In this document: piece by piece, positions 6,401 through 47,739 of the stretch
How the letters are laid out: the number at the start of each line of letters is the position of its first letter
How positions within the stretch are numbered: position 1 is the stretch's first letter
IMG/VR virus record: IMGVR_UViG_3300029319_000048
Location: 8,028-58,712 of that record
Source of the DNA: a virus
Direction: 5' to 3' (one strand)
DNA: 50,685 bases
Notes under the pieces: generated by a model
Database searches by the model: none
What the model saw: the letters and a program-made list of their open reading frames with translations, nothing else
Told to the model about the DNA's origin: nothing
Program-made: the position numbers and the translations under genes

Positions 6401-9400
6401 TATCTTTTGTTGCTACAGCCTGCTCTTTGAAACCAAGTGGCTTTGCATAAAACTTTAACATAGCTCTCCTGAACATCTTACCCCAATTCAATGGGTTAAA
6501 TCGCGCTCCTCCTGTTACTTTTTCTCCAAAGGGTTGTTGACTTTCTTGTTGAATTTGAGATGATATCTGCATTGCTATATCATAAGAATTTAGTAACGCT
6601 TCTATTCTTTGAAACTCAAAATCTTTAAATGTAAGATTCTTTATATCTGCATCTTGTAAAGTTTCAAAAAGCCTCATGATAACTTTACCATTGTGGAAAT
6701 GTCCGAAGTCTTTTCTGTCAAGGTTTAAATCTCTTTTCTTTCCTCTAAATCTATTGAGGTCAAAAGATTCAATAAATTCATTTGTTTCAGCAGCAGTATA
6801 TGAGTTTATTCTGTTGAGTATTCCAAGGAGCTTTTCTTGTAAAGCTTCATTCTCTGTTTTTGGGCCTTGCTCGACTGGTGCTGTTGTCTGCTCACCTTCT
6901 TGTGTGTTTTCTAAATCTACACCTTCTGGTTTTATTACAAGTTTATTCAGTTTTTCAAGCTCTTGGTCTAAATTTTTTCGTAAATCAAACTTTGCTAAGA
7001 ATTTTTTATCAATAGGTTTAGTTTCTATTTCACTAACATCAATATTTCCATATGTACGAGCAATATTTCCAACATCAACTGAAGGTATTTCATACGTGTT
7101 TAAATAATCTTCTTTTATTTTGAAGTCTAAAACATATAATTCTTTTGCTCTTTCTTCTAGTTTCTCATAAAAATCTTCTTCTGTTAAGTTAGGATTTTCG
7201 TCTAGTTCTTGTTCAAAATTCATCTCATTGAAAGCCATAGAAATATAATCTTCTTTAGCTTCCCTAGATAAAAACTCAAATGCACTTGCATCTCCTATGT
7301 TAGAAACGATATCTGCCAGCTCCTCTTTTATGGCTTTTATTTTATTCAATGCTAGTATTCTAGCATCAGAACCTTTACTAGTTGCTTGTAGTGTAGCTTC
7401 ATTTGTCTCTAGGTCAGTCAGAAGATTAAGGAATCTAACTTTGTCTCCCTTTGACATTTTTGATACTAATTGTTTTCTTGACTTTTGAATACCTTCAATC
7501 ACATTTTTGGATTGCTGTATTAGTTCGGAAAAACTTTTATAACTCGGTAATTCTTTTATGTCTTCCATTTTCGTTCCTTTCTTGAGTTCCGATTGTACAA
7601 ACTCATCAAGGCTTTTACTAAGAGACAACATTTTTTCTGCCTCACCATAATAATTAGATGTGGTTATGTTTCCTTCAATAAACAAGTCTGCCATTGCTAA
7701 TGTTTTCTTGTTTTTACCATAACTAACAGCAACACTCATCCCCATTGAAGAAAAAACAGTGTGGTAAGACGTGTCTTGTAGCAACTTACCTAACTCAGCT
7801 TGATCGAATTCCCTTTGACCTGTCCAAGCCTCTACCATATAAGTCCATGCAGCAATATTATTTTCTTCTGCTAGTTCATATGTTGCTGCTTTTACAGGCC
7901 CTCCTAAAAATTTACTGAATTGATTATTAACGCTTTTGTCAAAGTTTCTTTGTAAATTTTCTGCTATCTCTTTTATTTTTTCTTGGGTCATGGTTTTTGG
8001 GTCTATGTTTTTCATAGATTTTTTCCATATACCTGCTTGTCTCAAATAGTTGTATGTGAATAAAGCAGTGAAACCTGTCTCAATACCTGCATTCACTCCT
8101 GCTATCGCCCTTATTGCCCAATCTGATGTTTCTAAATTGTTTAGTTCTATTTCTGTAAGAGCTACACCTGATGCTTTTGCTTCTTCAAGCATATTTCTTC
8201 TATCGTGGTAACTATATAAAGTTTCTCCATAAGAGTTAACACCTATTGTGCTTAAACCAAAATAAGGGTTTATAAACATAGCTCCTAAATACACCATACT
8301 AGTTGAGAACTGTTGATTTGCTAACCACATAAACTCTCCAATAGTATTAGCATCACTAATTCTTGTAGTCCATAACGGTAAATACTCCTCTCTTAATTCT
8401 TCTACATATTTCTTATCAAAAGGCCCTGGAGAAAAAGAAGTTGTCATAGGGGGTCCTCCTGGAACAGCCAAAGGATACAGCATTGGTTTATTTAACATAA
8501 ACTCAATCAATGCTTCATTCATACCAGTAGCTCTTAAAGCATCTCTACTTATTTCTTTCATACTACCACCCATGTCTAAGATTGTAAAATACACATTTTG
8601 TAATCCATCTTCAATCCACTCATACGCGTCATCAAAATATCTTTGTGTTGCTTCAAAAGCGTTTTCTCCATCACTACTGTCATAAGGTAAGCCCATTATA
8701 CCAGAAAAATCTCCATTGTTTCTATCTACAAGTTCTTTTGCTGCTATAACCATTGGAGCTAAAACACCGTAATCTTGTGGGTTTCCTATACTAATTTTTA
8801 ACTGTCCAGAACGCGCTTGGTTACGCAGACTGGGATCAGTCATAATGTTAAAAAGCTGCTCGTAATTTGCAGGCGCACCGTTGATAGTTATCGCCTCTGT
8901 CGGCATATGACTAAATATATCAAATCCATTTTGATTTGCTAATGATGCAAAAATATAAGCCTGTGGCCCATCTAAAGGTATGTCTTTAAAAGCACCATTC
9001 ATTTTTAAACCAATTCCTGCTGTTTTAGAAGCATTGGTTTTAAGAACTCTTAATCTTTCTACATAATTACTCATGCTTTTTGTAAGTATTTCTCTTACTG
9101 TTCTTTTATTGCCATACCTATCTATGATTGTATCGTTTAGATTGTCGGATTGACCTAAAACATTATATAAAGCATCAGCGTCATTTACACCAAACTGATT
9201 GTCATAATTTATCTTTTGTAATATTCCATCTTTATCTAACTTTATATTAGGGTCTTGTAATCTTATCTCCACACCAGGCGTTTCAGAGTCTTGCCTCAAT
9301 TCATTCATCATTTCAATAATTATATTATTGGCTGCATTGTAGTCATATATCAAGCCTCCATTTTTATCTTTATAAGCTTTGTAGAAATCAAATCTATCAA

Positions 9401-10778
9401 TGTCAATACCGATTTCTTTTGCAATGTTCACAATCATATTGTTAGATGCAAAACCTAAATCTTGAAGATTTGCAAGTCTGTTGAAAATATATTCTTGTTT
9501 ATTTTCTGCTAAAGCATATCCATCAGCAAAAAACTTTGCAGGATTTGCAGTTTTGGTAGCCGTATCAAACTCTGTTAAAAAATTTTCGAATGCCTGTGCG
9601 TAAACTTGGGGACGAATAATTGTTTGTAAAACACCAGGAGTGTCAGTTATTTCAGGTGTACCTACCATTTCAAGTAATGTTTCTTTGTCTATTCCGAAAA
9701 CATCTCCACCATACAATTTAGTTTCCATAACTAAATTTCCTGCAGTATCAAATATTTGTAGTGCATGATTTTGTCTTTCAATACCAGGCACATTAGACTG
9801 AACAACAGGTTTTGCCGTATAACCAAACCCTTCAAATTTCATGTTAAAAACCTCTGCTGCATCAGGTGCTTCCATCAGCATAAAATTAACATCAAGGCTT
9901 CTTGCCATGTTAACAAATGTAGAGTTTTCATTATAACTAAAATCATAAAAAGGGTCAACTGTAAGTAGGTGATTTGCCCTCATTTGCCTAAACGCTAATT
10001 GATATGTTTTGTCTTTTGCAAATAACTCCACATTATCATCAGATATTCCTAAAATCTTGTTTGATTTATATAACCTATCAAGTTCTCTTTTGTATTTTTC
10101 TTGTAGACCTGCTGAACTATAAGATAAAGACGTCCTTGTGGTAGCACCACCATCTAACTCATCTAGGCTTTTTTCACCATTTATAACAGCCTCAATATCC
10201 TCATCTGTGTAATCATAATTATATAAAATCCTGTTTGATTCTAAAATACCCTTATAATGTTGTTTATAAATTTCTTTTTTGTATGCTTCTATATCCTCCT
10301 CAGACATATCTTCAGGCATCATTATTTCTTGACCATCTAACACTTCAGGGCCTGACATAGTAGCTGGGATGTTTAAATCCTTAAAATTATCAAGTGTTAA
10401 ATTTTTAGCTAGGTATAAAGAGTTTATTCTATCTGCCTCTGCTTGTTCTGCTTCTGTATCTCTAAAACTATTGTAAAGTTTATCTTTTTCATCATCAGAT
10501 AAAATAGGGAGGTTATTTGTATACTTGTATTCATCTATCTTATCACTGAAAAACGAATAATTCTTTGACATTAAAGAATACTGATTTGGACTTATAGGTA
10601 TTGAAGTACCTCCCAAACCAGCCCAATATTGTTTTACTTTAGATTCACTAATTATTGGTTTTAATAATGATTTTGTGGGGGGGTCTTCTTGTTGATTGTT
10701 TTCTTCAACAGGAGGGTCGTTTGGTAAAGTTACCGAACTATTTTCATTGATATCAGTATTATTTAAAACTTCTGCCAT
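3486..10778 (-). CDS. Giant virion/ejection (cargo) protein, 2430 aa
   Basis: The largest gene of the window and last in the late region, directly downstream of two probable internal virion proteins. In short-tailed phages this position usually holds giant proteins packed inside the head or tail and ejected with the DNA. The N-terminus is Pro/Glu/Asn-rich (about residues 1-45); the rest is largely helical, with long charged stretches (about 1080-1400) and Gly/aromatic/hydrophobic patches that could be membrane-active. I see no lysozyme/transglycosylase signature and no DxDGD RNA-polymerase signature. Some stretches in the C-terminal half resemble the 'large polyvalent protein' domains of phages and integrative elements, but only loosely. 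The tail is rich in Q, S and P. The role is inferred from size and context. Confidence 0.6.
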   Translation of the reverse strand: MAEVLNNTDINENSSVTLPNDPPVEENNQQEDPPTKSLLKPIISESKVKQYWAGLGGTSIPISPNQYSLMSKNYSFFSDKIDEYKYTNNLPILSDDEKDKLYNSFRDTEAEQAEADRINSLYLAKNLTLDNFKDLNIPATMSGPEVLDGQEIMMPEDMSEEDIEAYKKEIYKQHYKGILESNRILYNYDYTDEDIEAVINGEKSLDELDGGATTRTSLSYSSAGLQEKYKRELDRLYKSNKILGISDDNVELFAKDKTYQLAFRQMRANHLLTVDPFYDFSYNENSTFVNMARSLDVNFMLMEAPDAAEVFNMKFEGFGYTAKPVVQSNVPGIERQNHALQIFDTAGNLVMETKLYGGDVFGIDKETLLEMVGTPEITDTPGVLQTIIRPQVYAQAFENFLTEFDTATKTANPAKFFADGYALAENKQEYIFNRLANLQDLGFASNNMIVNIAKEIGIDIDRFDFYKAYKDKNGGLIYDYNAANNIIIEMMNELRQDSETPGVEIRLQDPNIKLDKDGILQKINYDNQFGVNDADALYNVLGQSDNLNDTIIDRYGNKRTVREILTKSMSNYVERLRVLKTNASKTAGIGLKMNGAFKDIPLDGPQAYIFASLANQNGFDIFSHMPTEAITINGAPANYEQLFNIMTDPSLRNQARSGQLKISIGNPQDYGVLAPMVIAAKELVDRNNGDFSGIMGLPYDSSDGENAFEATQRYFDDAYEWIEDGLQNVYFTILDMGGSMKEISRDALRATGMNEALIEFMLNKPMLYPLAVPGGPPMTTSFSPGPFDKKYVEELREEYLPLWTTRISDANTIGEFMWLANQQFSTSMVYLGAMFINPYFGLSTIGVNSYGETLYSYHDRRNMLEEAKASGVALTEIELNNLETSDWAIRAIAGVNAGIETGFTALFTYNYLRQAGIWKKSMKNIDPKTMTQEKIKEIAENLQRNFDKSVNNQFSKFLGGPVKAATYELAEENNIAAWTYMVEAWTGQREFDQAELGKLLQDTSYHTVFSSMGMSVAVSYGKNKKTLAMADLFIEGNITTSNYYGEAEKMLSLSKSLDEFVQSELKKGTKMEDIKELPSYKSFSELIQQSKNVIEGIQKSRKQLVSKMSKGDKVRFLNLLTDLETNEATLQATSKGSDARILALNKIKAIKEELADIVSNIGDASAFEFLSREAKEDYISMAFNEMNFEQELDENPNLTEEDFYEKLEERAKELYVLDFKIKEDYLNTYEIPSVDVGNIARTYGNIDVSEIETKPIDKKFLAKFDLRKNLDQELEKLNKLVIKPEGVDLENTQEGEQTTAPVEQGPKTENEALQEKLLGILNRINSYTAAETNEFIESFDLNRFRGKKRDLNLDRKDFGHFHNGKVIMRLFETLQDADIKNLTFKDFEFQRIEALLNSYDIAMQISSQIQQESQQPFGEKVTGGARFNPLNWGKMFRRAMLKFYAKPLGFKEQAVATKDILKQLLIRDRNIASPWTNLYEEINRKISVATKQSNDIYNDLFNYYVSEKNKGKFFLNKTDYKSATIEDDYEMSLLAGLARINLDGVSTTEFQRYQKVVKEELDLRRREADGAFLSGESRYSKTEAKRRYELLLNATNKLRFFDAKSFEDVTQFAESYNLEIITRLQGHFKDGEQDAKNRVYGFGGEWTNFDNYLPLFLTDSYGPDTWMTPTRKYDMYGDPASQGFYKGVPINTAGALQFATTPDSYEGTGFRLQFGGFLRNSVLSLKGSKIDATGRQDMETLVYLFNNPEFASLFEDQQDYDLFKFFFADQMKNDFNYQVNQGRNPYTDFGDQNLWKEWSDGEGAFAEFKKNFAKTVNTLFTGASAVSLGSLTQPTQQYYSAMNNSYLRAESPEARQFFTKKMMYFSVGLAGLTNSSKRGGWITQGMRDILGIGDMSNIFNQSQVSLRNSIRAELPLSQDQRLDISYYETKFNLDAGFFGKYGVVPSKYTFDELMNVIQSNAELSLNFFLARTDKVAANASFLGHYLDFKIRNGSKYPAGTKARKEWWAKENENPDIGAINYADGIVKEIMRPSSDMTEAPLYKDNNTGTQMALQTLYPFAKFQINAKTQFWTQYSIYMDESLPQDQRDAAYRTMLGIGAEIATFQATKTGLGAVLYGNLASVLLGFDEEEIERKGGLTGVLFETLLPIDDRAFMNKLDERFKDMTVEEINTIEGLNAYYRLYQDHYIGEDFAPNLELLQTYMNTYQNKSDASPKNNNIIRGVFGDVIETLNPTVFPPVAYDFAFGMINHTAQEYGIIEKDSKIFLEFASEDLYNAEGEFDFGGVRKVLEENLGLLGIVGDQWTKIKNALNLMEKNQISKRVPGGATQTQYVGTGSPAINEKIDQAIATIFIMRMASSLNLIPGAPNAEIDRIAEKMYRQLEKYLNTTTSQASGESQSRPDPEMKTNFSRYWETLEEQKEKRSKEPLNEPN

Positions 10779-14309: not shown

Positions 14310-17300
14310 TTAATCGTCATCTAATATTTTTGGCCAACCTAAAGAACCAGAGTCATCAAAACCTAAATTCTTTAATTCATTTGTCACGTGGTATAAGTAA
14401 TAATATTCCCACTTATCAAATCTATCAGTAGTGCCTGGCTTATATGGAGCTTGTGAATCAGCTAAAGTTCCACCTGATTGAATTGTAGCGTCTTCAATGT
14501 CATAAGTAAACCCTAAATAATTTGTAGCACCTGATGCTAAATCACTCAAGCCATTTGTTCCACTAAAATTACCAGTGCCATTTTCTACAGCCTCTACATA
14601 GCTTTTAAAAGCAGCCGAACCATCTACCTGAAACAACACTCCTCTATAAAAATTATTATTAGATGAGTTCAATGTGTTTATTCTACTTCTTAAAGATGCT
14701 ATATCTGCAGAATGGAATCCTTGAATAGCACCAGTGTATGAAGTTGCATGGTATTTAGCTTGAGTAGTTGTACCCCCTTCTGCTTCATCTTGGAAAACTA
14801 AAATTACAACATTTGTTGCATCACTTGGGAAGTCATTATGTCCATTTGCTACAAAGTCATTTACATCACTATCAGATAAAGCAGCCCAAGTTCTTTCGCT
14901 ACTCCATATCGTACTTACATCTGAATAAACTATTGTAACATGGTCATCATAAGCATCACTTCCGTTTGTAGAGGAGTCGGTGTTTCCGTCAGACTCTTTA
15001 TTGCCTGTTGCATATAAATCCTGTAAAACAGATTTTAAGGAATTAGCACGCATTTCGTTCAAAGCAAGTAATGTGTTGTTCATAGAACCTGATGCGTCAA
15101 AATATATGTAGATGTAAGTATCTTGAGTAATACCAAGAGCTTCTGTTGCTATTGTTGCTACTGCCCCACAAGTTCCATCTCTTGATATTCTATATTGAAA
15201 AGTGTCAGTCAAAGCGTTTCCTGCTGTGTGAGTATAAGAAATTGATGTTGCTGGACTTCCACTAACTACAGTTGCTGTTCCATTTATTGGTTGTGTTATG
15301 ATTTCCAGAGTATATGGACTAGGAACTGTGTCGTTAGCAACTACATTAATAACAGATGTTCCACCATTTGATATACCTGTTACAGAATCATCCACTAATA
15401 CTGGTAGTTGGTCTCTATAATCAAAAACTAAATATAAATTTTCACTTGTATTACTCCTGTTAAATGTAAAAGATAACTCATTTTCTTCTTCTGTATTGTT
15501 TTCGGTTTGAGTAATAGTTCCAGAAAAGTTAGCATTCGTTAGTATATCTGAAGCAGTTGGATTTACAGCAGATGTTACCCAATAACCCATATCATTACAT
15601 TGATTGAAGTCTGCTGAGTGTATTGCTTTTATTCTGAAAGAAGACATTGTTACAGTGTCTCCATTCAACGGTATATTTATAGAGCCCATATTGCCTTCAT
15701 ATGTTTCAAATCTTGACTCTCCGTCAGCTTCAAAAGTATCTAAAACACCGTTATACGCGCCATTAGTAGACCCCTTGTACCTATTTACTATTGTTTGGTT
15801 TTGTTTTAATGGATCATTTACAACCAATACTGTAACTTTCATTGTTTCTGGTACAGGACATTCGTTTTCAATTTCCACTAGAGCATTGAATTCTGCTTCA
15901 TTAGCAGTGTTATCTGGACATGAAACACTAATAATAGCAGTTGGGTCTTGTGTTGGACTACCTGAAAAAGTTACTGTTCCTGAACCTGAAAGATTTGTGT
16001 GGTTAGTTACAGAGCCATTATAATCTACATCAATATTTATAGAACCACCAGACACTATGTTATAGTTTATCGTATAAGTTCCTGATAAATCACTTAATTC
16101 AAACACATACTGAAAAGGAGCAAACCCTTTTCGTAAGTTTTTTACAAAACTTGTGTTACATCCTAATAATGGGTTGGCTAATGGTTTTTCTGATTGTCCT
16201 GGAGTTAAAACATATTGATTATGTCTTGGGTCATATCCACCTATGTTGTAATGGTTTCTAAAGCCATATAAAATAGTTTTAAAGTAGCTTTTCATACCTA
16301 GTGATGATATAGGGTCTATACCACTTTGACTTAGTCTTAAAACTGCTCCCCTGTTAGGGTCTGCAAAATAAACACTGTTTTCATACGAAGCAAAACTTTC
16401 TGGTGACTTCCCTATACCATATTCACCAGTAAAAGGAACATCCTGACCTAAAACTTCTTCTATTCTAGTCAAACTACCTGTTCCATCTGGAGCATTTATT
16501 ATACCTTTACCAAATAATACTTTAGATACTCTATCTTCCTGAAAAACAAGCAAGTCGTCTTCCCTTGAGTGTATTTTTTGCACAGAACCATATTTCATAT
16601 CCATAAACTTCGTAATACCTCTGCTGGTATTAAACTCATTCAAACTGTTGTATGCGTTGTTTTCATTGAAAGAGCCACTATATATGAGTTTGTTTACAGT
16701 TTCTAAAGACCTATAACCCTCCAATAATGATATGTTTGGTCTTGTATCAACATCAATGAAAGGAGCAAACCTATCATCTCTAACTGAAATACTTTCTATA
16801 CCATTTCCAAAAACAAAACAATTCCCAAAATCTAAATCAACTATTGCATCTTGTGATGAGGTTTGATTCTGGACGTTTCCTTCATGAAGTCCACTTTTAA
16901 TTTCAAAAGTTTGTTCTGTTTCATAAAAAACTTCATTATTTAATTCATCTGGGTCAGTTTCAAATGCAAGGTTTCCTGATATTAATATAATATTAAGCTT
17001 ACATGTCATTCTTCCTCTTTCTGCCCAACTAATACCTTCACTCGCGTGAATTCTCATAAAAAACCTATCGTTTGCAGGAACAGCAGTTCCTTCTTTCACT
17101 ATACTCCACTTGAATACCTCACCATCTCTGTTTGTGGTTGTTGGTTTTACTGTATACTCATTGTATGCACTTGCGCCAGAGCCAACAACATTTTTCTCGA
17201 AAATTGTTTCTGCATCTGCCCATTTATCAAAAGCATTTACAGAATCATCAGACTCATAAGTGTTTTGAACTGTAAATTTTTTCTTGAATCTAAATATAGG

Positions 17301-19706
17301 TTCTCCATCATATTCGTCATATAACCAATCAAATTCTATTCTTGAACCTGGTGTAAGAGCTAAATCAAAATAACCATCTGTGCTACCTGGTGTTTCGGTA
17401 TAGCTGGGGTTTAAAACTTGCAGAAACCCTTCTGGTGGTATTCCACCTGAGCCACCTAAAAAAGAGAATAATCCACTACCAAAGTTGTGACTTGGTAAGA
17501 AATTGTTTAGAGAGCCACTATTAGCAAAACCTTTGTAGTGAGAGTCTTCATACTGCATAAAATTATTTGGATCAAAATCTAAAGCAAATCCATCAGGTTT
17601 TATCTTCATAAATGTTCCAGGTTTTTCTATAATAGGTTCTCCTCCTGGAGTCTCATTGCCTTCAATCCAACCCTCCTCTTTATCTGAAACATCTTGCGCT
17701 GTTTTATTTACTATCTCTAATACTTTTACTTTAATCAAATCTCTTATAGGGCCGTCTGTATCAGATTTCACAATCATCATAGAACCAGGCTCAACTTTTC
17801 CAATATTGTTTCCCTCCATTGAAATCCACCTAAAAGTACCATCTTCATAAAATAATGTACCAAAAATATTGTAATATACCTCTTTGTTTGTTTTCACAAA
17901 AAACTTATATCTGGTTGCCCAATATGGTGGCTTGTTTCTTATTGTAATTCTTGCTCTGTTTAAAAACTCAGATGCTGATACTGGAACAAATATTTCGCTT
18001 GCCCCTGATGTTACATCTTCTTTAGGTAATAAAACAGATGTGTATCTTCCAAATTCATCAAGATAGACTATACCAAACTCAAAACTTCTATTTGTTTTCA
18101 AAGATAGATTTGAACTTTCTTTACTAAAAAAAGCTTGTGGGTTTCTCCACGTAAACTGTTCTACATCTACTCTGGTTTGATTATCAGTGCTGTCTAATGG
18201 AGTTGTGTCAATAGTATGTGTAATTGCAGGAGCTTTGAGAGTAAATGTTGTTGAGGTTGTTTGAATCAACTCAAAACTTCCATATACCGATGACACTACA
18301 TCTGGATGAGTATCTGTTGTAACTTGTGCAGCAAAATTAGTTTGTAAGTTTTCTAAAAAAGCTTGGAAATCTTCTGATGCAGTAAATTCTTGTAAGGTTG
18401 GATATCCTTCTGTTAAAACTATACCTGCATTAAAGGAAGCTTGACCTTCTTGATAAGGTGTGACGCCATCCTCTAATAGTTCTTCTTCTGACTCTAAATC
18501 AATTAACATCAAAAGCTCGTTATCCTCCTCCAACACTATGTCTCCTACTGTAACTGTAAGTTCAGTGCTATCTCCACTATCATTTATAGAGACCGATAAA
18601 GTATCTCCACTCAAATCTGTAGAAACTAATTCTGCATGATAGTCTAATTTGATTGGTAATTCATCTGACTCATTTTCTAATAAATCATATTGTGAAGTAG
18701 TGTTTCCAAACACAATTCTATCTTTAATAAAATCTTGTGTTTTAGCAGTAAGAGGCACATCATCAAAAACCCTAAATACTTCATCTTCAGGTAAAGCTTT
18801 GAATATTTTTTTATTTAAAAATTGATATGTTTTTAACTGGTCATCACCAAAGTCACTCTCATTTTTATTAATACTATCAATAACATAAATTGTGTTTTCT
18901 TTAGCAAGTTTAAAACAAATATCAATATCTGTAACGCGTTTATCTCCTGTGTTGTATTGTATGTTGTATCCATTGTAAATACCAACCATACCTTTATTTT
19001 CCATCGTAGAAAAATCTAATTCAAAAAGACCAGGAAAAAACTTATAATTTGTAAATGCAGATAAAGCTGAATATTGACCATCTAAATACTTATATCTGTA
19101 CGCAAAAGCAAAAAACTGCTCCTTAATTGCGTTTTCTTTTAGTGTTGCACTAAAGAATGGTGTGATTTTTGGTGCTTTGAAAGGTGGCTTTCTATATAAA
19201 GAAATGTCATCTTCTTCAAACCCATTCTCCCCAAATTCAGCAGCCCTGTCAACATTCACTAGTTTTGGTGAATTACATCCATCTGTAAACAACAATAAAG
19301 ATTCTTTTTTTGGAATATTAAATATTACATTCCCTTCTATTTTACAATCCTTATCAAAGTTTAATACATTTTTAGCCTCTGCTCTTGTGTCTTTTAATAT
19401 TAATCTCTGAATTTGATTAGCCACATCGAATTCAAAAACAAAAGAATGTCCAAGGCTATTTACTACAAACCAATAAATTCTTTCATTTGATTCATCTGGA
19501 ACTGCTCCGATAACTTGTGGGCTATTACTAATATTAGTGTGAGATAATTGAACATTACCTTCTTCGTTTACAACAACCCCGGCAGAACCATCTGCTGTGT
19601 TTACAACACGAATATTTAGGGCGTCAATATATTCACCTTCAGGAACAAGTCTTTCATCGAAATCCTTGTTCATCTTTCCTACAGAAAAAACATTTTTTAA
19701 TTTCAT
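14310..19706 (-). CDS. Muzzle/tail-nozzle protein with cadherin-like and von Willebrand A domains, 1798 aa
   Basis: The N-terminus (MKLKNVFSVGKMNKDFDERLVPEGEYIDALNIR, residues 1-33) and the segment IGGYDPRHNQYVLT, ending at about residue 1168, resemble the muzzle/stabilisation protein that closes the tail of crAss-like phages. Beyond 1168 the protein is different. About 1200-1300 is Ig-like. About 1437-1525 is a cadherin-like/Big_9-type unit (LVDDSVTGISNGGTSVINVV, then ITQPINGTATV and DTFQYRIS). From 1528 comes a von Willebrand A-type domain with the MIDAS metal motif DASGS at 1537-1541 and a later hydrophobic-QDE strand. vWA MIDAS domains bind protein or glycan ligands through a divalent metal, so a receptor-binding role at the tail tip is a reasonable inference. 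It lies 2 bp downstream of the connector gene. Confidence 0.72.
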   Translation of the reverse strand: MKLKNVFSVGKMNKDFDERLVPEGEYIDALNIRVVNTADGSAGVVVNEEGNVQLSHTNISNSPQVIGAVPDESNERIYWFVVNSLGHSFVFEFDVANQIQRLILKDTRAEAKNVLNFDKDCKIEGNVIFNIPKKESLLLFTDGCNSPKLVNVDRAAEFGENGFEEDDISLYRKPPFKAPKITPFFSATLKENAIKEQFFAFAYRYKYLDGQYSALSAFTNYKFFPGLFELDFSTMENKGMVGIYNGYNIQYNTGDKRVTDIDICFKLAKENTIYVIDSINKNESDFGDDQLKTYQFLNKKIFKALPEDEVFRVFDDVPLTAKTQDFIKDRIVFGNTTSQYDLLENESDELPIKLDYHAELVSTDLSGDTLSVSINDSGDSTELTVTVGDIVLEEDNELLMLIDLESEEELLEDGVTPYQEGQASFNAGIVLTEGYPTLQEFTASEDFQAFLENLQTNFAAQVTTDTHPDVVSSVYGSFELIQTTSTTFTLKAPAITHTIDTTPLDSTDNQTRVDVEQFTWRNPQAFFSKESSNLSLKTNRSFEFGIVYLDEFGRYTSVLLPKEDVTSGASEIFVPVSASEFLNRARITIRNKPPYWATRYKFFVKTNKEVYYNIFGTLFYEDGTFRWISMEGNNIGKVEPGSMMIVKSDTDGPIRDLIKVKVLEIVNKTAQDVSDKEEGWIEGNETPGGEPIIEKPGTFMKIKPDGFALDFDPNNFMQYEDSHYKGFANSGSLNNFLPSHNFGSGLFSFLGGSGGIPPEGFLQVLNPSYTETPGSTDGYFDLALTPGSRIEFDWLYDEYDGEPIFRFKKKFTVQNTYESDDSVNAFDKWADAETIFEKNVVGSGASAYNEYTVKPTTTNRDGEVFKWSIVKEGTAVPANDRFFMRIHASEGISWAERGRMTCKLNIILISGNLAFETDPDELNNEVFYETEQTFEIKSGLHEGNVQNQTSSQDAIVDLDFGNCFVFGNGIESISVRDDRFAPFIDVDTRPNISLLEGYRSLETVNKLIYSGSFNENNAYNSLNEFNTSRGITKFMDMKYGSVQKIHSREDDLLVFQEDRVSKVLFGKGIINAPDGTGSLTRIEEVLGQDVPFTGEYGIGKSPESFASYENSVYFADPNRGAVLRLSQSGIDPISSLGMKSYFKTILYGFRNHYNIGGYDPRHNQYVLTPGQSEKPLANPLLGCNTSFVKNLRKGFAPFQYVFELSDLSGTYTINYNIVSGGSINIDVDYNGSVTNHTNLSGSGTVTFSGSPTQDPTAIISVSCPDNTANEAEFNALVEIENECPVPETMKVTVLVVNDPLKQNQTIVNRYKGSTNGAYNGVLDTFEADGESRFETYEGNMGSINIPLNGDTVTMSSFRIKAIHSADFNQCNDMGYWVTSAVNPTASDILTNANFSGTITQTENNTEEENELSFTFNRSNTSENLYLVFDYRDQLPVLVDDSVTGISNGGTSVINVVANDTVPSPYTLEIITQPINGTATVVSGSPATSISYTHTAGNALTDTFQYRISRDGTCGAVATIATEALGITQDTYIYIYFDASGSMNNTLLALNEMRANSLKSVLQDLYATGNKESDGNTDSSTNGSDAYDDHVTIVYSDVSTIWSSERTWAALSDSDVNDFVANGHNDFPSDATNVVILVFQDEAEGGTTTQAKYHATSYTGAIQGFHSADIASLRSRINTLNSSNNNFYRGVLFQVDGSAAFKSYVEAVENGTGNFSGTNGLSDLASGATNYLGFTYDIEDATIQSGGTLADSQAPYKPGTTDRFDKWEYYYLYHVTNELKNLGFDDSGSLGWPKILDDD

Positions 19707-31170: not shown

Positions 31171-34100
31171 TTATTGGTTGCTTTCTAAAGCTGCAACCTT
31201 TGCTTCCAGTTCTTTTATTGCTTTTAACAATACCGGCACTAATTTAGAATAGTCTGCTTGTTGGTAATCAGGAGTTTCATCCTCTGCTATTGCGTCTTTT
31301 TCTCCATTCACTGCGTTTGGCACAACCTCAGCAAGTTCATGAGCAAAGCATCCATAATCTCTATTATCAATATTTTTCCATTTGAAGTCATAAACAGGTA
31401 TTTGTTTGACTAAATCTAAAGCATTGAAATCTTTTGCATCTGTTTTAAGCCTATAATCAGAAGTCGTATTGTATGTAGTTCCTGAATTATTTGTAGCAAT
31501 AGACCCTCTAATACTAGATGTAGAAGAAAACCTTTGAAATACTATTTGATATCTACTATTTGTAGAGTGGAAATTGTTTTGTATTCTAACAACTGGGTTT
31601 GATAAACTTGTTGCTGGTTGGTATCTTGTGTCTTGTATATTGAAAAATGGTTTTGATCCACCTGAGTCTCCCCATAAATCTATATAACCTATTTGATTAT
31701 TTGTATTACCACCTATTTTAATAGAATCAATCCCACTTGAAGGACTTCCATTGGCTTGTAAAAATGCATACTGAGCACACTTGAAAATCATTTTTTCCCC
31801 AGATGTTTGATTTGTAGAAATATACTCTATGGAACCAGTATATCTATTATAGCCATACTGCATATTACTTGCTCTACCAAATCTTATATTTGTTGATATA
31901 TTTCCTGTAGCCGTACTATCTGTTACAATATCTGCTACTAAACCAACTGTTCCACTAGTTGTTCCATTATTGTTACTATTTTTGAAAACAATATGACCTT
32001 CTGTTGAATTTGAAAAAGCGTAATTAAAATTACCTACCAATGAAATTCTACTTCCACCATTTGTAAGATTGTCTGCACCTGTTATGTAAGTAGTTGGGGT
32101 TGTACCACCTAAAGCACCCCAGGTTAAAAGTTTTGCGTTATCCAGGTCTAGATTGTTTGTAACCTCTACGTCTCCACCATAAGTAATATCTACAATCTTA
32201 TTGCTATTAGTATACCACTCTAAACCACCACCTGTGCCCTTGATATAATTAGATGTTCCTGTGTTAAAGTATAAATTACCTCCACATAAAATATTATTAC
32301 TTACATGCAATTTTTGTTGAGGGGTGGTTGTTCCAATACCCACATTGTCTCCATTAGTACCATTTAATATTAAATCACCGTCAGCTTGTATTTGTATTTC
32401 TGCTCCACCTGTCGCTGCTCTTGATATATAAAATGGAGCATTACCAGAAGAACCTTGAAAGTGCATGTTCACTGTATCTGTCTTAGCAGAACCTATAGCC
32501 TCTATTCTAATACCTGATGAATTATTTCCAGCGTCTTGTATATGTAAGTCTGCTGTTGGAGAAGTAGTACCAATACCCACTCTTTTGGTTACTGATAGAT
32601 TGTCTTTAATATAAACTTGCGATTCTGTGCCTACATCACCGTCACCAGATATCTTTAAAGCTTCATACTGTGAACCAGCTTTTTGTACTATAAAATGTAA
32701 ATCTGTATTTAAGTTTGCAAATGTAGTGTCTACTGCTTCTAACCCTGGCCCAAAACTTGATATAAGACCAATCTTCATTACATTTTGATTTCCATTTAAA
32801 AATGCACCAGCAGATGGTTTTTTTAAATATATAAATGGGTCTTCACCTGAAAAAATAAATTCACCTGGAGAGTGTAATTCTACACTATCACTTTCTAAAA
32901 CCAACTTAGAATAATCATAATAATCAATCTCAGGACTAGTTCTGTTATAAAACACAGTAGCACCATCATTAATTAATGCATTACTACCAATATCTAAATC
33001 TTGTGTTGCTGTGTGATTCCCTAGATTGTCTCCTGAACTACCACCAATAGCACTTAAAAATTGTGCAGCATTTAAGTATGATAATGATTCGTCTGCATTT
33101 ACTCTTATATAAGACGCAACACTTACATCCCCTAGTTGTGCAAAGTTAGAACCAACTGTTGTAAACTTACCATCAACATATCCTTTTGACGCTGCATCAG
33201 TTGAGGCACTAACTGTATCAATACCCTGTATTCTACCATTACCACTAAAGACAATACTGTCTACTAAAGTAATTCCACTTCCCTGAACATCTAAATCTCC
33301 AGTGACAGTTACACTTTCTGCAAAAGTTGCATTTTGAGATGTATCTATAGTTAAGGCTATAGTGTCATTTGTAACTAATTTAACTGGATCACTGCTTTCT
33401 GAACCTATAAATAATCCGTCACCTGTACCTGCACCTGTAAAATCTTGAGTTGTTATTTTATAATCATCTCCATTACCGTTATTTCTAAATACAATCTGCT
33501 GGTCATCATCATCTGTACTATCTTTTAAAACAATTTTAGGAGACCCTGCTATTATATGTAAATCACCAGTCATAGCACTACTAGAGCCTCCAGTTTCTAA
33601 AACATATCTAGCGTCTGCATCTGTTTGTGTTATGTAAGAACTTAAATCTTGGTCACCAGTGTTTGCAGAAGCAAGCGCAGCTATATCAACTCCATCAACC
33701 GTACCACTTACAGTTATATTTCCTTCAACATTTACACCATCACATATTACATTACCATCGAAATAACCGTTTCTCCATTGATAACTACTAGAGCCTAAAT
33801 CATAAGTATCATCTTTACCAGGCCTAAGGTGTCCATGTAAATAACCATCTTTATATCTTTCCAAAAAGTTAACACCTCTCGTAGTATCAGTACCAGTGTT
33901 ATTAAGGTTATTATCTCCAGCCCTATAGTTAGCCATATACAGAGAGTGTATTCTAAAGTAATTACCATTAACAGAACCACCTAATGTATATTTTAATCTA
34001 GTAGTTGCTGCACCTGTACCAGAATTACTACCAACTTGTCTTAATATAACTTGGTCTGTATTATTAGTTATCTCACATAGTGTCTGCCAAGCACCACCTC

Positions 34101-34989
34101 TATAAGCTTCTATTTTTACATATGTTGCTGTAAAACTATTTGAACCAAATACAATACCAGCCCATAATGAATATGTAGCTTCATTAGTCCATTCTAATTC
34201 TACTACACCTGGTGTATCTGTACCATGAGTATATACACCATCAGAACCATTGTCTGAATACCAACTACCTGCTGTACTTGAGTGTGAATCAAAAGCGTTT
34301 GCCCAACCACCATCAGTGCTTGAAACCTCATTACTATAAGTATAGCTACCTGAACTACCACTTCGTGTTTTATAAAATCCACTTGTTGTTATTGTAGCAT
34401 TACTCCATTTATTAAATCCAGCTAAGTCATTTATAATATGTGGTATGTGAACCATGTTAGCTTCAGATGCAGGATTTAAAAATCCACCATAAACAACAGT
34501 ACCACTATTACCAGTGCTAATACCATCGTATTGCATATTCATGTCATCACCAACTAATATTCTGTTAGTGTTAATATCTAATCTTTCAGTACCTCCTGTT
34601 ACAACTCTCCAAACATCAGCAGCTTCAAACTGCATGTATGTATCAGTATCACCACTATGTATTATTTTATTTGGTATAGTTAATTCGCCAGTTAATGTAC
34701 CACCTGTTAATGGTAAATAAGAAGAAAGTTGACTTTCAAGAGCAACCTTGTTGCCATCTACTTGAAGCTCTGAAGCTCCAGAAAAATTCATTTTCTTGTC
34801 TGTAGTATCATCTATTGCGAAAAGGTGGACGTTGTTTGTTCCTTGAAATACAACGCCTTCGCCTGGGTCATTTATGTAAAGGGCATTAACTCCACTTATA
34901 TTGAAGTTGCTTCCTGAAATGCCATGGGTTAGTGTTAATCCTTCGATTCCCCCTTCAGCATCTATTTTCTGTTTGAATTGAATAGACAT
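31171..34989 (-). CDS. Tail fibre with C-terminal S74 intramolecular chaperone, 1272 aa
   Basis: A long beta-rich fibre. Near residues 200-350 is a lectin or discoidin-like region (WYSDNGSDGVYTHGTDTPGV; then VELEWTNEATYSLWAGIVFG) that could bind sugars. The middle has repeated 'GNxTVSGTV', 'VTVTGDLDVQG' and 'VGIGTT.P' units typical of trimeric fibre shafts. The C-terminus from about 1165 is a Peptidase S74 chaperone: the self-cleavage Ser-Lys pair is visible in SDYRLK (S1177, K1182), followed by FKWKNIDNRDYGCFAHELAE and a closing coiled coil. S74 domains trimerise the fibre and then cut themselves off. This is probably a main host-recognition protein. Confidence 0.85.
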   Translation of the reverse strand: MSIQFKQKIDAEGGIEGLTLTHGISGSNFNISGVNALYINDPGEGVVFQGTNNVHLFAIDDTTDKKMNFSGASELQVDGNKVALESQLSSYLPLTGGTLTGELTIPNKIIHSGDTDTYMQFEAADVWRVVTGGTERLDINTNRILVGDDMNMQYDGISTGNSGTVVYGGFLNPASEANMVHIPHIINDLAGFNKWSNATITTSGFYKTRSGSSGSYTYSNEVSSTDGGWANAFDSHSSTAGSWYSDNGSDGVYTHGTDTPGVVELEWTNEATYSLWAGIVFGSNSFTATYVKIEAYRGGAWQTLCEITNNTDQVILRQVGSNSGTGAATTRLKYTLGGSVNGNYFRIHSLYMANYRAGDNNLNNTGTDTTRGVNFLERYKDGYLHGHLRPGKDDTYDLGSSSYQWRNGYFDGNVICDGVNVEGNITVSGTVDGVDIAALASANTGDQDLSSYITQTDADARYVLETGGSSSAMTGDLHIIAGSPKIVLKDSTDDDDQQIVFRNNGNGDDYKITTQDFTGAGTGDGLFIGSESSDPVKLVTNDTIALTIDTSQNATFAESVTVTGDLDVQGSGITLVDSIVFSGNGRIQGIDTVSASTDAASKGYVDGKFTTVGSNFAQLGDVSVASYIRVNADESLSYLNAAQFLSAIGGSSGDNLGNHTATQDLDIGSNALINDGATVFYNRTSPEIDYYDYSKLVLESDSVELHSPGEFIFSGEDPFIYLKKPSAGAFLNGNQNVMKIGLISSFGPGLEAVDTTFANLNTDLHFIVQKAGSQYEALKISGDGDVGTESQVYIKDNLSVTKRVGIGTTSPTADLHIQDAGNNSSGIRIEAIGSAKTDTVNMHFQGSSGNAPFYISRAATGGAEIQIQADGDLILNGTNGDNVGIGTTTPQQKLHVSNNILCGGNLYFNTGTSNYIKGTGGGLEWYTNSNKIVDITYGGDVEVTNNLDLDNAKLLTWGALGGTTPTTYITGADNLTNGGSRISLVGNFNYAFSNSTEGHIVFKNSNNNGTTSGTVGLVADIVTDSTATGNISTNIRFGRASNMQYGYNRYTGSIEYISTNQTSGEKMIFKCAQYAFLQANGSPSSGIDSIKIGGNTNNQIGYIDLWGDSGGSKPFFNIQDTRYQPATSLSNPVVRIQNNFHSTNSRYQIVFQRFSSTSSIRGSIATNNSGTTYNTTSDYRLKTDAKDFNALDLVKQIPVYDFKWKNIDNRDYGCFAHELAEVVPNAVNGEKDAIAEDETPDYQQADYSKLVPVLLKAIKELEAKVAALESNQ

Positions 34990-45951: not shown

Positions 45952-46141
45952 TACTCCTTCTTTTATAATCATATCTTGGTCTTGAATCATGGTAACTATC
46001 TTGTTTTTTATCAATAGTGAACTTAGTTAAGATATTTCCCTCTAAATCAAGAACGGTATATCCTTGTCGAACCAACAAGTTCAAAGCTTTTAGTTGTTCG
46101 TCAACCCTATTGTTAATGCCATATGATTCAAAATAATCCAT
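45935..46141 (-). CDS. Hypothetical protein, 68 aa
   Basis: MDYFESYGINNRVDEQLKAL, then NLLVRQGYTVLDLEGNILTK and a basic, disordered end (RPRYDYKRRSNVDTN). Its start overlaps the last base of the GroEL gene. No family recognised; probably co-expressed with the chaperonins. Confidence 0.65.
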   Translation of the reverse strand: MDYFESYGINNRVDEQLKALNLLVRQGYTVLDLEGNILTKFTIDKKQDSYHDSRPRYDYKRRSNVDTN

Positions 46142-47739
46142 TAGTTTTTATTGTTTTCGTCTTTTTTAATTCTTTTGTTAGATATTACGCATGATGTGGT
46201 AAGAATGATTCCTGCAACTGAAGCTGCGTTTAATACTGCATTCTTTGTTACCTTGAAAGGGTCAATGATTCCCATTTTAAACATATTACCATATTTCTTT
46301 CTTTTTACATCATATCCATAATCCTTTGGTTTTTTGTATATACTTTCAAAAATTTCTTCTGCATCCTCACCTGAATTACTTACAATATTCTTAAAAACAC
46401 AACTTAATGCCCTGTACACTGCAAAATAGCCATCCAAATAAGAAAGTGAGTGGCTTCGATGAGGTTTTTTGTAAAATTTTCCAGCAACTTGTGTGAGTGC
46501 AATACCTCCACCAGCAACTACACCTTCTTCAAGTGCTGCTTTTGTTGCGTGGATGGAGTCATCAACTCTATCTTTCTTCTCTTTCAACTCAACTTCTGAG
46601 TTTCCTGCTAATTTTATTGTGGCAACCCCACCAGCAAGCTTGGATAACCTGTCTTGTAAGTGCCATTTATCAGCTTTATTCTTTTTTAGCTTGATTTCAT
46701 TGGTTAACCACTCTATTGTTTCTTGTTTTTTGGTGTTTTCCACGTTATCAAACACTAAAATTGTCTCATTTATGTCTGAAATCATGGTTTTACACGTGCC
46801 GAGGTAAGATTTATCTATATTTTGTGATGAATCACCAGACATTTCTGAAATTATACGCCCTCCAGTCATCATTGCCAAGTCTTCAAGCAGTTCAAACCTC
46901 TTAATTCCTATACCTTCTGGTGAAATAAAGTTCGCAGTCAGGTTTTTTTTGTTAATATTCTGTGTGATGAACAATTTTACTCTGTCATCAAGCTCTGAAA
47001 TGATTAAAAGTGGCCTTTTTTCCTTGATTGAAGCTTCAAAAGCGAAATGTAATCTTTCATGCATGTCAATTTTAGTGTCACTAATAAAAATTAGAGGGTT
47101 TTGAAACTCAACTGTTCTTTTTCTGACGTTATTTATAGAAAAAGGCGTCCCATATCCTTTTTTGATTCTGGTTCCATTAGTTATTTCTGTGTAATCTTCA
47201 CTGGTTGTGGAGTCATCCATAGTTACTACTCCGTCTTTTCCAACCTTCAAATATGCGTCAGCAATCATACCACCTAGATAGGTGTCACCATTTGCCGATA
47301 TTGTTGCTACTTGGACGAGGTTTTGGTCATTGACTTCTTTTTTTAGTTTTTCCAAACTTTGCACCACATCTTTTGCAGCTTGTTCTATTCCTTCTTTTGC
47401 TTGTGTAACATTTTCAAACTCTATTTCGAAGCATTTATCAATGATCGCCTTTGCCAAAACACACGATGTAGTTGTACCATCACCTGCCTCTGACGCTGTT
47501 TTTTGTGAAGCTTGCCTTAAAATACTGACACCTAGATTCTGGACAGGGTCTGAAAGTATTACACTATTTGCTACGGTCACTCCATCTTTTGTTATATGTG
47601 GGTTTCCGAACTGGTCTTCAATTATAACTGTTTTTCCAGAAGCACCTAGAGTTGAGGACACGGCTTCTGCGAGGATGTCTATACCTTTTTTAAGTTCAGA
47701 CCTCCCCTCATCAGAGAAAGTTATGTTCTTTTCAATCAT
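46141..47739 (-). CDS. Phage chaperonin GroEL (Cpn60)
   Basis: A 532-residue Cpn60, slightly shorter than E. coli GroEL (548), without the usual GGM-rich tail. ATP-site residues are present: D52 (ITKDGVTVA) and GDGTTT at 86-91, including D87. In the intermediate region, RVDDSIHATKAALEEGVVAG matches the conserved hydrolysis and GG block. The apical domain (about 190-370) is divergent, so client or co-chaperonin binding may differ from the host's. It probably folds capsid or tail proteins, as known for phage GroEL homologues. First large gene of the operon; a palindrome and phased repeats lie upstream. Confidence 0.92.
   Translation of the reverse strand: MIEKNITFSDEGRSELKKGIDILAEAVSSTLGASGKTVIIEDQFGNPHITKDGVTVANSVILSDPVQNLGVSILRQASQKTASEAGDGTTTSCVLAKAIIDKCFEIEFENVTQAKEGIEQAAKDVVQSLEKLKKEVNDQNLVQVATISANGDTYLGGMIADAYLKVGKDGVVTMDDSTTSEDYTEITNGTRIKKGYGTPFSINNVRKRTVEFQNPLIFISDTKIDMHERLHFAFEASIKEKRPLLIISELDDRVKLFITQNINKKNLTANFISPEGIGIKRFELLEDLAMMTGGRIISEMSGDSSQNIDKSYLGTCKTMISDINETILVFDNVENTKKQETIEWLTNEIKLKKNKADKWHLQDRLSKLAGGVATIKLAGNSEVELKEKKDRVDDSIHATKAALEEGVVAGGGIALTQVAGKFYKKPHRSHSLSYLDGYFAVYRALSCVFKNIVSNSGEDAEEIFESIYKKPKDYGYDVKRKKYGNMFKMGIIDPFKVTKNAVLNAASVAGIILTTSCVISNKRIKKDENNKN

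Follow-up and report, generated by a model that had tools for sequence, protein, structure and literature searches.

Can the muzzle at the tail end of a phage carry a metal-dependent binding domain? The question is raised by a gene for a muzzle protein in the stretch of DNA from a marine crAss-like phage that is analyzed here (50,685 nucleotides, positions 8,028 to 58,712 of record IMGVR_UViG_3300029319_000048; referred to as the window), which makes up most of a 58.7-kb virus record. A sequence-only reading of the window had described the product of this gene as a tail muzzle protein that ends in a von Willebrand A (vWA) domain with an intact MIDAS. vWA domains are metal-binding and familiar from cell-adhesion proteins. 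Our analysis supports a muzzle with a vWA-like end and adds two features that were missing from this reading, namely, the split of the muzzle gene and the exchangeability of the modules at its end.

Muzzle identity, gene split, and site of the insertion

The assignment as a tail muzzle protein was borne out. Residues 2 to 184 of the 14310-19706 product match the Pfam family crAss_MUZ (3.8e-13), and the product of the adjacent gene matches crAss_MUZ_C (Table 1), so that the families of both ends of a crAss-type muzzle are found, one after the other. The latter protein also matches residues 1209 to 1287 of gp44 of phiCrAss001 in PDB 7qok (E = 2.3e-4), and its gene starts 11 bases past the stop of the first-subunit gene. 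With matches to crAss_MUZ_C and gp44 on the adjoining gene, the muzzle of the window is therefore split into two genes. Nearly the whole large subunit (residues 3 to 1512) matches PHROG 14478, a virion structural protein (3.9e-274), and residues 2 to 1508 are 35% identical to gp114 of Cellulophaga phage phi18:3. Both gp114 and gp115 of phi18:3 are annotated as structural from MS/MS, and by this homology, the muzzle protein of the window is expected to be present in the virion. Two PHROG virion structural proteins (phrog_13977 and phrog_14543) precede the muzzle, and the MUZ_C gene and then large genes come after it. This gene order is common to the window, phi18:3, and another contig (L037); it places the muzzle between tail genes that appear to be ring-like on one side and cargo-like on the other. 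In the phage collection, the annotated sequences closest to the window belong to Cellulophaga, Flavobacterium, Tenacibaculum, and Maribacter phages, and therefore, the host is likely a marine or aquatic member of the Flavobacteriia. The window also encodes a phage chaperonin of the GroEL/TCP-1 family (46141-47739, minus strand; Pfam Cpn60_TCP1, 6.8e-61).

Table 1. Positions of the muzzle subunits, their parts, and the separate fiber or spike in the window
Feature	Position	Strand	Basis or remark
Muzzle protein, first (large) subunit, 1798 aa	14310..19706	-	ORF, Pfam, PHROG, phi18:3 homology
Muzzle core, residues 1-1170	16197..19706	-	Alignment with unsplit muzzles, including phiCrAss001 gp44
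Beta-rich linker region, residues 1171-1433	15408..16196	-	First part of propeller-hairpin insertion
Big_9 (cadherin-like bacterial Ig) stalk domain, residues about 1435-1513	15168..15404	-	Pfam PF17963
vWA-like domain, residues 1522-1798	14313..15143	-	AlphaFold, fold searches, alignments
MIDAS motif 1, DASGSM, residues 1537-1542	15081..15098	-	End of first strand
MIDAS Thr1606 (ERT)	14889..14891	-	First residue of helix 85-90 of domain model
MIDAS Asp1640 in FQDE, residues 1638-1641	14784..14795	-	End of fourth canonical strand
Muzzle, second (C-terminal) subunit, 266 aa	13498..14298	-	Pfam crAss_MUZ_C 1e-10
Probable tail fiber or spike, endosialidase-type chaperone	31171..34989	-	Pfam Peptidase_S74 7.7e-11; separate from muzzle

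By homology to gp44, the core of the large subunit comprises the ring-joining, propeller, IG, and crass regions (domain plan as in PMC10172136). In an alignment with the unsplit muzzles (gp44 of phiCrAss001, phi38:1, elemoA, and Gundel_1), all that follows residue ~1170 in the first gene is placed between two neighboring strands (gp44 about 1166 to 1200). The insertion should thus interrupt one blade of the propeller, at a hairpin, and the second gene should take this blade up again. The linker with which it begins probably consists of two domains; in the alignment, it is lacking in gp44, phi38:1, elemoA, and Gundel and is found in phi18:3 and L037. In the published structure of phiCrAss001, the tip is occupied by the crass domain, and variation in length is described for the crass and IG2 regions but not for the hairpin that takes up the insertion (PMC10172136). 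The unit next to the linker, which had been called cadherin-like, proved to be a Big_9 domain with a match that exceeds the Pfam cut-off (E = 2.8e-8). Big_9 was matched in all 14 relatives scanned, and Cadherin_4 was additionally matched in 3 of them.

The muzzle of the window can thus be compared with two kinds of known muzzles. The N-terminal domain, the propeller region, and the C-terminal domain of phiCrAss001 gp44 (PDB 7qok/7qol/8ckb) match the window in sequence and order, but gp44 is a single chain of 1371 aa without the insertion, whereas the chain of the window is split and has about 630 residues, including Ig and vWA domains, before the split. The muzzles of Cellulophaga phages phi18:3, phi46:3, phi13:2, and phi19:3 share with the window the split gene, the Big_9-like stalk, and the 35% identity over residues 2 to 1508; unlike the window, they end in another domain of ~100 residues (seen for phi18:3), not in a vWA domain.

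Predicted fold and MIDAS residues of the C-terminal domain

AlphaFold, run with relatives, gave a model of residues 1434 to 1798 with a pLDDT of 87.2, and for the last 277 residues alone, pLDDT and pTM reached 90.6 and 0.91. The model of the domain begins with a strand, the DxSxS motif, a long helix, a short strand, and the Thr as the first residue of a helix, and continues with a strand, the Asp, a helix, a strand, a helix, a strand, and a helix. This predicted order is that of vWA domains, and the MIDAS residues occupy the expected ends of strands and helices: DASGSM sits right after strand 9-15 of the domain model, and Asp1640 ends strand 111-118. The alternating strands and helices that the sequence-only reading had expected after DASGS are hence present in the model as a confident beta/alpha core, DASGS lies exactly at residues 1537 to 1541, and the acidic QDE strand claimed there corresponds to FQDE at a strand end. 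Of the structure prediction and the fold search that had been proposed, the former has the Rossmann-like alternating core, and the top matches of the latter are mostly to vWA and integrin I-like domains, each of them weak.

Indeed, searches of Pfam, NCBIfam, and PDB sequences with the domain gave no vWA match, and no curated vWA model or solved vWA structure was hit at a significant level. When the domain alone was searched against PDB folds, the best E-value was 0.043, with a TM-score of about 0.3; the titles of at least 8 of the top 13 entries point to vWA or integrin I-like proteins (factor B, integrins beta1, beta3, and beta8, RGLG1, and ANTXR2), and the weak matches also included unrelated alpha/beta folds. 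The predicted MIDAS placement is the same as that of integrin beta I-like, factor B, RGLG1, and ANTXR2 domains, although the E-values are not significant and the domain of the window has long, phage-specific loops. A search with the Ig and vWA domains joined was uninformative, with large enzymes (TM-score of about 0.2) and phage Ig domains at the top. Against viral models, with a query that included the Ig domain, a 55%-identical protein was found (E = 1.3e-44), followed at lower rank by proteins of other viruses named "VWFA domain-containing"; the automatic UniProt name "VWFA domain-containing protein" is thus already on a protein of another virus. Profile comparison (hhalign, local mode) with nine bacterial vWA domains gave an E-value of 0.003, located on the DxSxS strand, compared to 0.57 with response regulators. 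Since neither a curated model nor a PDB structure was matched significantly, the assignment of the fold rests on the prediction together with the motif pattern, and for the same reason, we call the domain vWA-like and divergent. With this qualification, we conclude that the C-terminal domain is a divergent vWA domain.

The MIDAS is made up of DxSxS, a Thr, and an Asp. A DxSxS motif by itself was rejected as evidence; the protein has two (at 1537 and 1784), and shuffled sequences have a mean of 0.93. What goes beyond chance is the conservation of DxSxS, not its occurrence. In 24 distinct full-length relatives with a mean pairwise identity of about 57%, D1537, G1540, S1541, M1542, D1640, and E1641 are invariant, residue 1539 is Ser in 23 and Thr in 1 (L085), and residue 1606 is Thr in 22, Ser in L085, and Ala in L039, which gives 24/24, 23/24, 24/24, 22/24, and 24/24 for the five MIDAS positions. 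Both exchanges in L085 (Thr1539 and Ser1606) retain the hydroxyl group. The MIDAS-type motif noticed earlier is therefore real in the sense that it is backed by conservation across the 24 relatives, and the claim of a vWA domain holds for the conserved residues and the predicted fold but not for a significant match in family libraries or the PDB.

Exchange of modules at the propeller hairpin

IMG/VR was scanned with the conserved propeller segment, and 231 muzzle ORFs were examined, 187 of them distinct. A tree was built in which 140 muzzles could be classified: 31 have the vWA type of the window, 1 has another vWA type, 84 are split and end in something else, and the remaining 24 are not split. 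Not one of the 24 unsplit muzzles has the vWA type of the window. The vWA domain was rightly placed on a muzzle, but it is not peculiar to the phage of the window, since about 30 distinct muzzles carry this type.

The slot is empty in some relatives; in others, it is filled by thrombospondin type 1 repeats, BACON, Ig domains, or a second vWA type. The thrombospondin type 1 domain is best known from animal matrix proteins; ten such repeats fill the slot of one muzzle (L097:6529-9972; E = 4.7e-121) and four that of another (L246:6520-8481). In Pfam searches, the He_PIG Ig domain was above and BACON below the cut-off. The closest view of an exchange comes from L029 (IMG/VR 3300010368_000090) and L162 (IMG/VR 3300025626_000100), whose muzzles are >90% identical over most of their length, including most of the insertion. 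L029 ends in the vWA type of the window, and L162 ends in a different vWA (CSGGMDVAFIMDYTGSM), which is matched by Pfam VWA below the cut-off (0.0017). Both types occur in L039. Two muzzles (L095 and L096) have retained the Big_9 stalk with a different end domain, and L092 has neither the stalk nor the vWA domain. The smallest well-supported set of the tree that holds the window has 31 rows, 28 with and 3 without the vWA domain. Six changes of the vWA label are needed on the tree, four of which are forced by well-supported branches, and therefore, the domain has been gained or lost repeatedly. Taken together, the sequences show the vWA domain as an exchangeable module, one among several that occur at a slot in the propeller hairpin.

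In phage ctfjg026, an extra small gene lies between the two muzzle genes (L041:10644-11195); it is annotated as a putative glycosidase and has no Pfam match. The slot is therefore able to hold a separate gene as well.

The vWA type of the window is also found outside muzzles. An unrelated, non-crAss virus contig of 94 kb (L036) encodes a 376-aa protein with this domain, and a neighboring paralog carries a beta-propeller in place of the vWA domain, the N-terminal domain and GGVVVGG repeats being common to both (7479-10211 for the pair). A protein of this family with a Big_2 and a vWA domain is encoded in a Chitinophagaceae MAG (L046:75-1199), where its gene lies at the end of a contig and is flanked by cellular genes; this protein may be a prophage remnant or a cellular adhesin and is a possible source of the vWA domain. 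Both occurrences fit a mobile binding head. Two further bacterial MAGs (L044 and L045) contain muzzle genes of the window type, either as phage sequence that was binned with bacteria or as prophages.

Possible function of the vWA head

In our model, the vWA head would project from the surface of the muzzle on the Big_9 stalk, in several copies per muzzle if the latter is hexameric as in phiCrAss001. Via a bound Mg2+ or similar ion, it would hold a ligand with acidic or hydroxyl groups on the surface of a Bacteroidota cell, and this grip would help to keep the tail end in place or to align it until the muzzle opens. Metal binding, exposure on the virion, the position at the tail tip, the ligand, and the adhesive role are what we infer for the vWA domain; in the phiCrAss001 paper, contact of the distal crass domain with the cell is likewise only proposed (PMC10172136). 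Exchange of the domain for unrelated, often adhesive modules argues for a binding partner outside the muzzle and against a part in keeping the muzzle together, and favors a metal-dependent binding head over a structural role. The head is therefore probably best seen as an exchangeable device for gripping the host, and the explanation as a whole, a divergent MIDAS vWA domain on a Big_9 stalk in the slot of a split muzzle that holds the host surface in a metal-dependent way, is one that we consider fairly probable.

A typical hypervariable receptor binder is not what the sequences suggest. Hypervariability of the vWA domain relative to the muzzle core was tested in the main clade and not found (57% versus 57% mean identity, r = 0.77), which counts against such a binder; a vWA domain that is as conserved as the core fits a conserved ligand. 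The probable fiber or spike with the S74 chaperone may be the main receptor binder. As this protein is separate from the muzzle, the vWA head may provide an additional contact, dependent on metal, by which the muzzle is held or oriented.

The correlation with the core could also be read differently. The metal site may bind an acidic residue of a neighboring subunit, for example, the split-off C-terminal one, and serve a structural or regulatory purpose as a gate or assembly clamp. vWA domains often are intramolecular or inter-subunit clamps, and such a role would agree with the co-evolution of domain and core, the lack of hypervariability, and the confinement of the vWA domain to split muzzles. 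However, 84 of the 140 classified muzzles are split without it and carry many unrelated modules, L095, L096, and L092 do without it although related muzzles have it, and in L162 it has been exchanged. From the split muzzles without the domain and the exchange in L162, it follows that muzzle assembly cannot generally depend on it, and we regard a clamp as unlikely.

Binding could, on the other hand, be external and yet not directed at the host: the head might attach the phage to polysaccharide outside cells, to vesicles, or to particles of the marine habitat and raise encounter rates instead of recognizing a receptor. TSP1, BACON, and Ig domains bind matrix or glycans rather than a single receptor, so the other modules of the slot are of a suitable kind, and host specificity could come from the separate S74 fiber. 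Attachment near the tail end more naturally suits the side that faces the host, and we think that capture of such material is quite unlikely to be the function. A different Rossmann-like domain, for example, a degenerate enzyme or a sugar-binding fold, might have a fortuitous DxSGS, and the lack of a family-library name and the weak, partly unrelated alpha/beta matches in the PDB would be in line with this. Yet residues are conserved at every canonical MIDAS position, their order and their places at the predicted ends of strands and helices are as expected, vWA proteins are enriched among the top fold-search matches, and a second, more typical vWA domain takes the place of the first in L162; a non-vWA fold therefore seems very improbable to us.

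A metal-dependent head on a muzzle would have a precedent in a cellular predator. The adhesin Bd0875 of Bdellovibrio, a predator on Gram-negative prey, has a surface vWA domain with a DxSxS MIDAS, and normal invasion of the prey depends on this motif (PMC11003981). Unlike the muzzle, Bd0875 is a cellular lipoprotein; its sequence does not match the vWA domain of the window, and the second vWA type in L162 matches it only weakly (0.0029, far below the cut-off). Tailed viruses encode CobT-type vWA domains with a MIDAS (PMC8651126), but viral CobT is a subunit of the enzyme cobaltochelatase and not a virion protein. A search of the open-license literature for phage tails or muzzles with a vWA or thrombospondin domain gave nothing relevant apart from CobT, and a published vWA domain on a phage muzzle was not found there. 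The parts are of known kinds, and the combination of vWA domain and muzzle, the slot, and the swaps appear to be new.

In a wider view, the propeller hairpin of split crAss-like muzzles may serve generally as a site at which adhesion heads dock and are exchanged, which would give these phages, in part of the nozzle itself, an integrin-like, metal-dependent grip on the host besides their fibers; we see about equal reason to accept and to doubt a proposal of this breadth. If it is true, the toolkit of the slot, with two vWA/MIDAS types, TSP1 repeats, BACON, and Ig domains, resembles that of animal cell adhesion. If the conserved MIDAS in the exchangeable head is adhesive, chelation or the change of a single residue should affect adsorption. 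The slot accompanies the splitting of the muzzle gene in many marine relatives and is a place to look for host-range modules across hundreds of metagenomic phages.
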